A DNA stretch of 64,000 nt, taken from the NCBI RefSeq assembly GCF_022637395.1, contig NZ_CP093338.1:620001-684000 (forward strand), in the 5' to 3' direction. The notes beneath the pieces are model-generated. The model had not been told where the DNA came from and searched no databases. It saw only the letters and a program-made list of their open reading frames with translations. This stretch comes from Shinella sp. H4-D48. Lineage in GTDB: Bacteria > Pseudomonadota > Alphaproteobacteria > Rhizobiales > Rhizobiaceae. Shown in pieces: positions 25,426 to 29,299 of the stretch. Each line of letters opens with the position of its first letter. Position 1 is the first letter of the stretch. The position numbers and the translations under genes are program-made.

Positions 25426-26061
25426 CTACCAGCGCAACCAGCGCCGGCCAAGCAATGCGCCCACGGCGCTCACGCTGGCAATGGCTATCACATACCAGGT
25501 AGCCAGGAACAGCGGACTGTCATCCGGGCAGTGCCAGGCATAGATAGCGGCGGCGATGGCACCCGCAGCTAGCCCGGCCGCGGCGCCCGCGGCCGCCGGG
25601 TTCTCTGGCGCGCCTTTCTTCAAGGCCCAGAACAAGCCGGCGAACGGCGCAAGCGAAAGGACCGGGACGAAAAACAAGCAAAACAGCGCGTTTTGCCCGA
25701 CGAGGCTCGCCCGCCAGGCATCCTCCGGCAAAACAGAAAGCTCTACGACAACAGCGGCGACGACCATGATGAGCGGCACGCCGAGCGACAGAGCAGTCAG
25801 GCGGATTTCCGCGCCTGGCCGGCCGATACGTACAGCAAGACGGGCGGCGAGAACCGCGAGCACGAGTGTGATGACGATCTTGAACAGTACGCGCCAAGTC
25901 TCAAAGACGCTCGCCATATTATGCCGCAGCCCGACGGTGCCGACGAGCAGCGCGGCAGAGAAAACGACGCTGGCGCCGAGCGCGAGCGCTAGAACTCGAC
26001 TGTAGCGCATACTTACGGGGGCGTCGTGCGTCATCAGGGTGATCAGATCGTCCGTTTTCAT
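25426..26061 (-). CDS. NrsF-like (DUF1109) membrane anti-sigma factor
   Basis: A 211-residue protein with six predicted membrane helices (about 23-43, 58-78, 88-110, 122-146, 158-175, 185-205), matching DUF1109/NrsF. NrsF proteins hold an ECF sigma factor at the membrane and release it under metal stress; a conserved cysteine pair is needed in characterised members, and Cys128 and Cys178 here are the only cysteines. The start is one base after the sigma-factor stop, so the two are co-translated. It should restrain the sigma factor that drives the bufferin operon across the divergent promoter region. Confidence 0.87.
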   Translation of the reverse strand: MKTDDLITLMTHDAPVSMRYSRVLALALGASVVFSAALLVGTVGLRHNMASVFETWRVLFKIVITLVLAVLAARLAVRIGRPGAEIRLTALSLGVPLIMVVAAVVVELSVLPEDAWRASLVGQNALFCLFFVPVLSLAPFAGLFWALKKGAPENPAAAGAAAGLAAGAIAAAIYAWHCPDDSPLFLATWYVIAIASVSAVGALLGRRWLRW

Positions 26062-26062
26062 T

Positions 26063-26617
26063 TCATTCGCTCCGATACAGGGCCGCCAACGATTTCAGCG
26101 CCCGGTGGAGGGCGACGCGCACCGCGACCTCCGTCATTTTCAGCCGTGCCGCCGTTTCGCGGATGCCTTGCCCCTCAATCGAGATCGAACGGACGATATC
26201 GCGTTGCGGATCTTTCAATCGCGCCAATATTGTTTCGGTGTCGATTCGGTCGGCGGCTTCATGCGTTTCATCGGCCGCCTTCAGGAAATCGGCAACGTCC
26301 TCGATCGGCACATTCACATGCCGGCCGCGACGCCTCAGGCTATCGACCAGCTTGTTGCGCACGATGGTCGCCAGCCACGGTCCGAGCGGTCGGGACGGAT
26401 CCCAGGTGCCGCGCTTCAGGTGGATGGCGAGCAGCACTTCCTGCACCACATCCTCGGCTTCGCTTGCCGGCGCACCGAACTGATCGCAACGCCGACGCGC
26501 CATGCGGCGCAATTGCGGCGTCACGTCAACAAGGAAACGGTTGTAGGCCTGCGCATCGCCCTTGATGGCGAGGCGCAGCCAGGCTGCCCATTGCTCTTCA
26601 CGCGTCGATTGTTTCAC
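26063..26617 (-). CDS. ECF RNA polymerase sigma factor (SigF-like)
   Basis: A 184-residue ECF sigma factor. Region 2 includes APASEAEDVVQEVLLAIH and the promoter-melting segment GPWLATIVRNKLVDSLRRRG. Region 4 is at the end (ISIEGQGIRETAARLKMTEV, then VRVALHRALKSLA). I chose the GTG at 26617 because a good ECF promoter motif on the same strand (26628-26656) would put the transcript start about 4-6 bases upstream, making the message nearly leaderless. A GTG at 26644 has a stronger ribosome site (GGAGGT) and is the alternative if another promoter is used. The next gene is its NrsF-like anti-sigma factor. The divergent DUF2282/DUF692/DUF2063/DoxX operon carries the same motif and is the likely regulon. 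Confidence 0.88.
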   Translation of the reverse strand: MKQSTREEQWAAWLRLAIKGDAQAYNRFLVDVTPQLRRMARRRCDQFGAPASEAEDVVQEVLLAIHLKRGTWDPSRPLGPWLATIVRNKLVDSLRRRGRHVNVPIEDVADFLKAADETHEAADRIDTETILARLKDPQRDIVRSISIEGQGIRETAARLKMTEVAVRVALHRALKSLAALYRSE

Positions 26618-26627
26618 CGTTTCATAC

Positions 26628-26656
26628 CCTACGCGAGGCAACACGAGTTTGTTACC
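26628..26656 (-). promoter_or_regulatory. Predicted ECF promoter of the sigma/anti-sigma operon
   Basis: GGTAAC (26656-26651) and CGTAGG (26633-26628) on the minus strand are separated by 17 bases. An AAC-type -35 and a CGT-type -10 are usual for ECF sigma factors. The divergent operon has the same two boxes with the same spacing, so the sigma factor probably activates its own gene. Confidence 0.6.
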
Positions 26657-26764
26657 TCCCGCGACAAGAAAACTGTGATGCGCCCAACAGCCTGAAGCGC
26701 AGGGTCTTTTTCCTATGCCGCGTGCCCATCCGCAAGAGGTGTCCGGAAAAATACACTTCAGCTC

Positions 26765-26793
26765 TGTAACGAAGCGCAATCGCTCTCCGTAGC
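26765..26793 (+). promoter_or_regulatory. Predicted ECF promoter of the bufferin operon
   Basis: TGTAAC (26765-26770) and CGTAGC (26788-26793) on the + strand are separated by 17 bases, as in the promoter facing the sigma gene. Transcription would start about 26800, giving a 5' leader near 42 bases before the ATG at 26842. Confidence 0.65.
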
Positions 26794-26841
26794 CGTCTAT
26801 GCACAGCCAATCGTGGCTGCCCCGAAAAACGGAGACAGAGA

Positions 26842-27123
26842 ATGAAAACCTCACTCGCCACTCTCGCCCTTGCCGGTTCGCTCGCTACCGCAATTGCTGC
26901 CGTCGCAGCACCCGCAAACGCCGATGACAGCAAGGAGAAGTGCTACGGCATCGCGATGAAGGGTCAGAACGACTGCGCCGCGGGTGCTGGCACCACATGT
27001 GCCGGGACATCAAAGATCGATTACCAGCAGAACGTCTTCAAGCTCGTGCCAAAGGGCACCTGCGTTTCGATGACGACGCCGAATGGCCACGGCATGCTCG
27101 AGCCGGGCATGGCACCGACCTGA
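26842..27123 (+). CDS. bufA1: DUF2282 bufferin precursor (BufA1-type copper-handling RiPP)
   Basis: A 93-residue precursor with a Sec signal peptide (residues 1-27, ending ANA) and a short mature part with four cysteines at 34, 45, 53 and 74 in the DUF2282 pattern KCYGIA, NDCAAG, TTCAG and PKGTC. Family knowledge: DUF2282 proteins (bufferins) are ribosomally made peptides whose cysteines are modified by a DUF692 multinuclear iron oxygenase with a DUF2063 partner; they then bind copper in the periplasm. Both partner genes follow here. GGAGACAGAGA precedes the ATG. A sigma-dependent promoter lies upstream and a hairpin downstream. Confidence 0.9.
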
Positions 27124-27148
27124 CACGCACCGGCTGCTACCCGACGGG

Positions 27149-27166
27149 CGGCGCCATCCGGCGCCG
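27149..27166 (+). terminator. Hairpin between the precursor and MNIO genes
   Basis: CGGCGCC (27149-27155) and GGCGCCG (27160-27166) pair perfectly around ATCC, 26 bases after the precursor stop. There is no T run, so partial termination or 3'-end stabilisation is likely, giving more precursor than enzyme. Confidence 0.5.
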
Positions 27167-27193
27167 TCACTTCCGTTTCAGAAAAGGTGTCCC

Positions 27194-28048
27194 ATGCTTT
27201 CCTCCGCCCTTCCACGCCGCGTTGGCGTCGGCTTCAAGCCTGAGCATTTTGCTGACATCCTGACCGAGCCGCAGCCGGTCGGCTTCTTCGAGGTCCATGC
27301 GGAAAACTACATGGGCGCTGGCGGCCCGCCGCACGCCCAGCTTGGCCGACTGCGGGAGGATTATGGCCTCTCGGTGCACGGTGTCGGTCTCTCCATCGGC
27401 TCCATGCAACAACTCGACCGTCACCATCTCGCCCGGCTGAAGACGCTCTGCGACCGCTACCAGCCGGAGAGCTTCTCCGAACATCTCGCGTGGTCCAGTC
27501 ACGACAGCGTTTTTCTGAATGACCTCTTGCCGTTGCCTTATACGGAGGAGACCCTCGCCCGCGTTGTCGAGCACGTTGATCAGGTTCAGATGACACTGGG
27601 CCGTCAGATGCTGCTCGAAAACCCCGCCACCTATTTGCTTTTCGCAGACAGTACGATCGAGGAGACGGCTTTCCTTGCGGAGGTGGCACGACGCACCGGC
27701 TGCGGTCTGCTACTCGACGTCAACAATGTGTTCGTTGCCGCAACGAACCATAATCTCGATCCCGGCGACTATATCGACCGCTTTCCGCTGGCGGCGGTGC
27801 GGGAAATCCATCTGAGCGGTCATTCCGAAACGGCGGACGAGCTTGGGGCACCGCTTCTGATCGACAGCCATGATACGCCGGTAAAGGATCCGGTCTGGGC
27901 GCTCTATCAGGAGGTCCTCGGTCGCATCGGCCCGGTCGCGAGCCTGATCGAATGGGACAATGACGTACCCGCTTGGCCAGTGCTGCGCGCCGAGGCAGCC
28001 TCGGCGCAGCACCTGCTTGATGCGGCCCACCGCAGCGTGGCTGCCTGA
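27194..28048 (+). CDS. bufB: DUF692 multinuclear non-heme iron oxidative enzyme (MNIO), bufferin-modifying
   Basis: A 284-residue TIM-barrel-type protein of the DUF692 family. Metal-ligand motifs are in the expected order: EVHAENY (33-39), VHGVGLS (61-67), SEHLAW (95-100), ENPATY (142-147), DVNNVFV (175-181), EIHLSGH (204-210) and DSHD (224-227). MNIOs use two or three iron atoms to oxidise cysteine side chains of RiPP precursors. The ATG at 27194 follows AAAAGG. It would act on the DUF2282 precursor with help of the DUF2063 protein encoded two bases downstream. Confidence 0.92.
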
Positions 28049-28050
28049 CG

Positions 28051-28836
28051 ATGTCCGCGACCCTCCAAAGCGCGTTCGCCGCAGGTCTTCTCGCCACCGG
28101 GCCCGCACCCGGGGGACTGACGGCATGGAACAACAAAACGCCGGAAAGACGCTATGGTGTCTACCGCAACAATGTCATGGCAAGCCTAACCGCGGCACTT
28201 GCGTCGCGTTTTCCAGCTGCTGAAAACATCGTCGGGCAAGCGTTCTTCCAGGCGATGGCACAGACCTTTATCGCGGCCCATCCACCGTCGTCGCCTGTCC
28301 TGCTGGCTTACGGTGACGATATGCCCGACTTCGTCGCCAACTTCGCGCCGGCCCGGGAGGTCGCCTACCTGCCCGACGTGATGCGGCTCGAAATCGCCCG
28401 TGGGCGGGCGTATCACGCGGCCGATGCCCCGCCGCTCGACCCAACGGCGTTCGCCGCAATCGACCCTGCCCGACTCGGCGGGCTGGTGTTTGAACCGAAT
28501 CCCACTTTGTCTGTGCTCTCCTCACTCCATCCGGTGATAACGATATGGGCGATGAATGCCGGCGCGCGACCGCTGGCAAAAATCGATGTCTGGCATGGCG
28601 AACACGCCCTGATCGCCCGCCCGCAAATGACAGTCGAAATAACCTCGTTATCGCCGGGCGGTGCAGCGTTTTTTCACCAGCTTGTCGCGGGCGCGACGCT
28701 CGCCATCGCCGTGGAAAGCACCATCCGTAAACACGCCGATTTCGATCTTTCAGACAACCTGGCGACGTTGCTCCGCTCGGGAGCCTTCTCCGCCATCCAT
28801 CAGGACAAAACCAATGAAGACCGAAACCATGTCTGA
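28051..28836 (+). CDS. bufC: DUF2063 partner protein of the MNIO
   Basis: A 261-residue protein of the DUF2063 family. The N-terminal helical domain shows the typical [20 protein letters not shown] (about residues 34-54), followed by [20 protein letters not shown] near residue 70 and [20 protein letters not shown] near residue 106. In characterised MNIO clusters this protein docks the precursor's leader onto the enzyme. It begins two bases after the DUF692 stop and overlaps the DoxX gene by 23 bases, so the operon is tightly coupled. Confidence 0.88.
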
Positions 28837-29299
28837 CCACGGCCGGTTCTTGCCGCACCGGATCTTTGAGCAAGGCCTGAATGCCCTGAACGCCATCCCG
28901 AACAATGTGATATCGCTCATCGCCCGGCTCTCGATAGCCGCCGTCTTTTGGCAATCCGGGCAGACGAAAGTCGAAGGATGGCGGCTCTCCGACAGCGCCC
29001 TCTATCTCTTCGAGAACGAATACAAGCTACCGCTGGTCGACCCATGGCTCGCCGCCCACCTCGCCGCTTTCGCGGAACACCTTTTTCCAATCCTGCTGGT
29101 TGTCGGCCTCGCCAGCCGACTATCGGCACTGGCGCTCTTAGGAATGACGCTGGTGATCGAGATTTTTGTCTATCCTGCCGCCTGGCCAACCCATGGAACC
29201 TGGGCCGCCTGTCTCCTGTTTATCATCGCCCGAGGGCCAGGCTCGCTTTCGCTCGATGCTGTCCTGTTTCGCATCTGGTTTTTGCGGCGCGGGCTTTAA
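28814..29299 (+). CDS. DoxX-family inner-membrane protein
   Basis: A 161-residue protein with four predicted helices and the DoxX pattern: [22 protein letters not shown] at the first helix, [20 protein letters not shown] in the middle, and [14 protein letters not shown] near the end. DoxX proteins often accompany DUF2282/DUF692/DUF2063 genes, where their role may concern redox balance. The ATG at 28814 has AGGA eight bases upstream and overlaps the previous gene by 23 bases; an ATG at 28829 is an alternative. It is the last gene of the sigma-controlled operon. Confidence 0.85.

Follow-up and report, generated by a model that had tools for sequence, protein, structure and literature searches.

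A Buf1-type bufferin island of Shinella sp. H4-D48 that probably stands under its own SigF/NrsF-type stress switch

Genes for a sigma factor and a putative membrane anti-sigma factor stand back to back with a four-gene operon for a probably modified, secreted peptide at positions 25426-29299 of a 64,000-nucleotide stretch of the Shinella sp. H4-D48 genome (contig NZ_CP093338.1; this stretch is the window, and its coordinates are used throughout). What does such a pair sense, and what does the operon do in response? Our analysis indicates that the island is very probably a Buf1-type bufferin cluster controlled by an adjacent stress switch of the SigF/NrsF type (ECF16), with copper as the most likely stress and a copper-binding peptide as the output. 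We assign the function class with high confidence; copper as the specific signal carries moderate confidence, by analogy with relatives, and the same analogy suggests that the window peptide binds copper. The group name ECF16 is used provisionally, from homology with RpoE7 and the usage of the papers cited. Published relatives disagree on the NrsF signal (copper, chromium and cadmium against H2O2 and HOCl). A whole-genome search found a single DUF2282, a single MNIO and a single NrsF match, a simple rhizobial case with one precursor, one MNIO and one NrsF in the genome, and these single-copy parts therefore make the island well suited to studying the NrsF signal.

The six-gene island is real and complete. 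A preliminary description of the sequence had listed six genes in this order; all six reading frames are open, and Pfam and NCBIfam profile searches with curated cut-offs placed every product above the cut-off of a Pfam family: NrsF (PF06532, E 1.2e-54), the sigma factor (Sigma70_r2 and Sigma70_r4_2), BufA (DUF2282, PF10048, E 4.4e-24), BufB (MbnB_TglH_ChrH, PF05114, E 1.5e-106), BufC (DUF2063, PF09836, E 8.5e-25) and DoxX (PF07681, E 4.4e-19). At the finer level of NCBIfam, BufB passes NF050167, 'MNIO family bufferin maturase' (MNIO_BufB; 389 bits, cut-off 310), and the sigma factor passes PRK12512 (265.8 bits, cut-off 198). The best NCBIfam matches of BufC (HvfC, 35 bits, cut-off 142) and DoxX (HvfX, 52.3 bits, cut-off 80) fall below their cut-offs. 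So does NrsF against the AntiSigF_NrsF equivalog NF042994 (84.5 bits over the full length, cut-off 300), and by its profile scores the window protein is filed in the Pfam NrsF family and not in that equivalog. The best NCBIfam match of the precursor is BufA2 (19.5 bits, below the cut-off of 60), and an assignment to Buf2 on this ground was ruled out by the four cysteines and the DUF2282 domain, which mark it as Buf1.

Residue alignments, whose rows were gathered by similarity to the window proteins, support the assignment of precursor and maturase. Cysteines 34, 45, 53 and 74, exactly the positions that the preliminary description had named, are each kept without exception in all 113 aligned precursors (the window, 32 family loci and 80 named loci), and the N-terminus of BufA has a hydrophobic stretch terminating in ANA-DD. 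The His/Asp/Glu/Asn motifs anticipated for the MNIO are likewise present, as a set of 29 such residues that 93% or more of the 113 aligned rows share, and BufB has sequence matches in the PDB to 3bww, 8hci chain D and MbnB (7dz9). BufC gave no PDB sequence match at E 0.001. Its AlphaFold2 model (mean pLDDT 91.5, from an alignment of 30 rows) matches best 8hi7 chain A (E 2e-5, TM 0.58) and 3dee (E 1.5e-4, TM 0.48/0.59), and reaches only E 1.4-1.8 against the stand-alone leader-binding chains 5v1u/5v1v. The TglHI complex 8hi7 contains the MNIO partner TglI, and NGO1945 (3dee) carries DUF2063 and RRE domains (PMC12452194); we take chain A of 8hi7 to be TglI from its chain length and that paper. 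BufC is thus a DUF2063 partner with a predicted RRE-type domain, as in a Buf1 cluster. In the same source, Buf1 is defined by DUF2282, sigma and NrsF genes are listed among the usual members of Buf1 clusters and are described as absent from Buf2 clusters, and bufferins are said to sequester copper via thiooxazoles (PMC12452194); a preprint proposes captophorins as the group name for such peptides (PMC12668002).

Does the sigma factor control the operon beside it? Both divergent units carry GTAAC-N17-CGTA, one copy facing each gene within the 224-bp gap between the sigma gene and bufA, so that the arrangement of a GTAAC -35, a 16-17 bp spacer and a CG(A/T) -10 occurs twice, before the sigma gene and before the target operon. 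The pattern GTAAC-N17-CG[AT]A has 17 sites in the 4.77 Mb genome, 6 of them CGTA, and the island holds two of the 17. Read backwards it has 58 sites, and the motif thus shows no genome-wide enrichment; by our own arithmetic, about 0.0008 sites would be expected in the 224-bp gap if the 17 were spread evenly, against the two seen. Among the relatives scanned with the looser GTAAC-N16/17-CG[AT][AT] (30, with L092 and L109 excluded), the motif faces bufA in all 30 and the sigma gene in 27, where shuffled sequence gives 0.7% per strand. When the set was widened to 80 divergent loci (the window, family genomes and named genomes, in which the same species may be repeated), a scan of the interval from the sigma gene to the MNIO gene found it facing buf in 70 and sigma in 76. 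A narrower scan recovered the buf motif in 44/80 named loci (31/56 of those with NrsF), a low yield that is at least partly due to tandem precursors pushing the motif out of range. The other 15 genome-wide sites (4 of them CGTA) were considered as further targets and none was accepted, after viewing the surrounding open frames for all and the translations around the four CGTA sites. One of these CGTA sites (L013) lies between frames recognised by eye as resembling HlyD and RND genes.

Table 1. Coordinates of the island's genes and promoters in the window
Feature	Coordinates	Strand	Description	Domains and evidence
nrsF	25426..26061	-	membrane anti-sigma factor (DUF1109/NrsF), 211 aa, Cys128 and Cys178	PF06532
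ECF sigma factor (SigF/RpoE7 type)	26063..26617	-	184 aa, GTG start	Sigma70_r2, Sigma70_r4_2, PRK12512
sigma-nrsF promoter	26630..26655	-	GTAAC-N17-CGTA, 12 bp before GTG	
buf operon promoter	26766..26791	+	GTAAC-N17-CGTA, 50 bp before ATG	
bufA: DUF2282 (Buf1) precursor	26842..27123	+	93 aa, probable N-terminal secretion signal, Cys34/45/53/74	
bufB: MNIO (DUF692) bufferin maturase	27194..28048	+	284 aa	PF05114, NF050167
bufC: DUF2063 partner, predicted C-terminal RRE-like domain	28051..28836	+	261 aa	PF09836, AlphaFold2 model
doxX: DoxX-family membrane protein	28814..29299	+	161 aa	PF07681

The sigma-nrsF pair on the minus strand, its genes 1 bp apart, diverges from bufABC-doxX on the plus strand, where the gaps are 70 bp (bufA-bufB), 2 bp (bufB-bufC) and -23 bp (bufC-doxX, a 23 bp overlap). 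The open frame of the sigma gene extends to 26854; we consider GTG 26617 its most likely start because the promoter lies at 26630-26655 and because an annotated Rhizobium leguminosarum relative begins there too. The flanking genes, for a sodium:alanine symporter and a chemotaxis receptor, have no obvious link to the island.

The arrangement recurs across the family. Our survey of 151 Rhizobiaceae genomes, in which NrsF and DUF2282 at most 8 kb apart counted as linked, found DUF2282 in 80 genomes and NrsF above cut-off in 51 (4 NrsF places below cut-off were dropped and 3 fragments in G094 counted as one place). Thirty-three NrsF places in 32 genomes, the window's included, lie within 8 kb of DUF2282, and 32 of the 33 are divergent. 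Of the 32 relatives fetched, 29 have all six genes by tblastn (in the remaining three, two loci are truncated at contig ends and one lacks an NrsF match), and for this reason we do not regard the island as a chance assembly. Two places (G084:C14 and G100:C22) have two tandem DUF2282 precursor genes against one in the window. At L156 (Mycoplana azooxidifex) tblastn found a bufferin cluster with an NrsF match adjoining bufA and no sigma match; the sigma gene may have been lost there.

It could be argued that the neighbourhood is merely historical and that the sigma factor has no control over the adjacent operon, and two observations do count against our interpretation. The survey holds 54 DUF2282 places in 52 of the 151 genomes without a linked NrsF (some possibly split at contig ends), which implies that the operon can exist without it, and the window -10, CGTA, is one base off the CGAA consensus of two papers, although the motif of the Bradyrhizobium member permits CG(t,a) at this place. 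We nevertheless consider a historical neighbourhood highly improbable, given the twin promoters, their conservation and the direct evidence in two relatives (PMC3511200, PMC6180224). The domains, the promoter pair, conservation among relatives and published work on orthologues thus support control of the buf operon by the divergent sigma factor, as proposed in the preliminary description.

The deviating -10 has a history of its own. Among the 80 divergent loci (6 of 86 aligned loci failed the divergent-layout filter), CGTA is the -10 of both local promoters across the window's clade, and mostly CGAA is found elsewhere. The buf promoter, scored in all but 10 of the 80, has CGTA in 30 of 30 loci in which sigma residue 70 (HLKR-G-TW) is G or A, and CGAA in 39 of 40 in which it is H, Q or T; S. 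meliloti 2011 (H with CGAA) agrees. Residue 70 presumably lies near the loop that reads the -10. We do not take it as the determinant of the -10 base: the tree needs only 2-3 changes, with one independent pair on starred branches and two on all, equally strong differences occur at many other sigma positions, and R. leguminosarum WSM1689 is a counterexample, with G and CGAA before its sigma gene. The -10 shift is clade history, essentially one historical change.

How would the switch work? The window NrsF, encoded beside the sigma gene, has only two cysteines, Cys128 and Cys178, both present in all 88 aligned relatives and placed where the functional pairs of NrsF (C131/C181) and OsrA (C129/C179) would predict them. 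NrsF homologues have six membrane helices according to the papers, and by homology the window protein is probably similar. Around these genes, domains, cysteines, conserved twin promoter motifs and the predicted BufC fold, all computed for the window, a mechanism can be proposed. In unstressed cells, the sigma factor would be held by membrane NrsF. Envelope stress that attacks thiols, with excess copper as its likeliest cause and other soft metals or oxidants as further possible ones, would alter NrsF via its two conserved cysteines and release the sigma factor, which would transcribe its own operon and the divergent bufABC-doxX from the twin GTAAC-N17-CGTA promoters. BufB with BufC would convert precursor cysteines to thiooxazoles, and the modified peptide would pass through Sec to the periplasm and bind copper there. 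Sigma dependence, anti-sigma action, thiooxazoles and copper protection have been demonstrated by others in relatives; by analogy, signal, modification, metal and benefit may be the same in the window organism.

The choice of copper rests on Caulobacter, where copper induces the SigF regulon, a sigF::Tn5 mutant is copper-sensitive, and a sigF mutant shows wild-type-like sensitivity to chromium and cadmium and severely impaired growth with copper (PMC8224329). The last result also argues against a peptide that buffers another soft metal (gold, silver, cadmium or zinc) instead of copper, an alternative that we find improbable, even though chromium and cadmium induce the Caulobacter operon (PMC3511200) and gold, silver and copper raise the expression of the homologous Cupriavidus gig cluster (cited in PMC8224329).

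Several published results fit copper poorly as the signal. Bradyrhizobium EcfF/OsrA responds to H2O2 through C179 and drives methionine-sulfoxide reductases; the Brucella pair BcrS/AbcS (ECF16) responds to HOCl and drives bcrXQP, for a methionine-rich sink protein and MsrPQ; a sigF mutant of Caulobacter also resists oxidative stress less well in stationary phase (PMC8224329); and the S. meliloti RpoE7 system was not induced by H2O2, CdCl2 or K2CrO4 (PMC6180224). The switch might then be mainly an envelope sensor of reactive chlorine or oxygen species, with peptide and DoxX acting as a sulfur-based oxidant sink and copper binding secondary. MsrP-type oxidoreductases near NrsF in other loci and the sigma motif before msrP, both described below, point the same way. 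Set against this are the copper phenotypes of Caulobacter just cited, copper binding by bufferins (PMC12452194), the silence of the S. meliloti orthologue towards H2O2 and the failure of agents that generate reactive oxygen species to induce the Caulobacter regulon (PMC3511200). On balance an oxidant sensor seems rather unlikely, and we keep copper as the favoured signal. The preliminary description had read the island as a bufferin system that answers copper or another metal: its anatomy, bufferin assignment and sigma control stand, whereas the role of copper, both as chief signal and as ligand of the peptide, is carried over from relatives, and because these relatives disagree on the signal we regard its interpretation as partly supported.

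In Caulobacter, msrP belongs to a SigF-regulated cluster (PMC8224329). In our scan of 86 of 87 places (contig-end place G087 excluded), GTAAC-N16/17-CG[AT]A occurs upstream of msrP in 11/24 island genomes, 2/9 genomes with unlinked NrsF and 1/53 regions from NrsF-less genomes (11/24 against 1/53: Fisher p 3.7e-6, with relatedness uncorrected). The msrP of the window genome (G000:C1 near 2015353; L231 1175-1300) has as its best site a GAAAC-N17-CGTA whose first base lies 62 bp ahead of the start codon; sites of this GAAAC kind precede msrP in 9/24 island genomes, but also in 6/53 regions from NrsF-less genomes, which leaves its membership in the sigma regulon ambiguous.

We fetched 20 of the 21 unlinked NrsF places (G094 excluded) and 20 of the 54 unlinked DUF2282 places. 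Among the 20 NrsF loci without bufA, seven (L110, L111, L113, L114, L116, L122 and L126), none with a bufferin cluster, encode an MsrP-type oxidoreductase (34-39% identical) in the fetched stretch; island loci showed no msrP nearby, but with their shorter flanks they are no fair control. Six of the seven also encode a methionine-rich, secreted-looking peptide, resembling the Brucella arrangement; three further methionine-rich frames (L127, L083 and L088) are not secreted-looking. A plasmid of R. leguminosarum WSM1689 (L319 4501-6971) has consecutive genes for a sigma factor, NrsF, a chlorite dismutase family protein and NrsF again, and the stretch contains no bufferin cluster. We tentatively suggest, as a possibility somewhat short of even, that ECF16/NrsF is a general reporter of envelope thiol attack with an exchangeable output, in some lineages a cysteine copper buffer, in others a methionine oxidant sink with MsrPQ-type repair, and in genomes like that of the window perhaps both via a distant msrPQ promoter, and that in the Shinella/Rhizobium clade the sigma factor and both local promoters moved together from CGAA to CGTA.

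The closest named relatives found are in Shinella, in searches that may not cover the window genome itself. There the MNIO is 83% identical and, in Shinella sp. WSC3-e, the sigma factor 90%, and loci L150 and L151 of Shinella genomes have CGTA like the window. The ten best plasmid records (nine Shinella and one labelled Roseateles sp. XES5) show 73-76% DNA identity over 76-77% of a 5001-base query and, as far as compared, differ from the window in sequence divergence alone.

Two relatives studied by others share the whole layout. Caulobacter crescentus sigF-nrsF (CC3253-CC3252) with CC3254-CC3257 has the same six genes and domains in divergent order, twin SigF-dependent promoters (GTAACC-N16-CGAA) and two functional NrsF cysteines, C131 and C181; it differs in a second DUF2282 target cluster (CC2907-2905) and a -10 of CGAA, where the window has one cluster and CGTA (PMC3511200). 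S. meliloti rpoE7-ecfR7 with SMb20530-SMb20527 is of the same family and layout, with mapped RpoE7-dependent promoters (PMC6180224), and tblastn against pSymB of S. meliloti 2011 matched all six proteins and located both published promoter sequences. It differs from the window in sequence (sigma 45%, MNIO 58% identical) and in a -10 of CGAA, and S. medicae and part of the S. meliloti strains lack the island (PMC6180224). Brucella bcrS-abcS with bcrXQP and Bradyrhizobium ecfF-osrA belong to the same sigma/anti-sigma group and share GTAAC promoters and two conserved anti-sigma cysteines, but their signals are oxidants and their outputs a methionine-rich sink protein with MsrPQ, or methionine-sulfoxide reductases. 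Layout, regulation and proposed function are already known from relatives, the first two published since 2012; the Shinella island reveals no new kind of system and is a well-preserved example of a known one.

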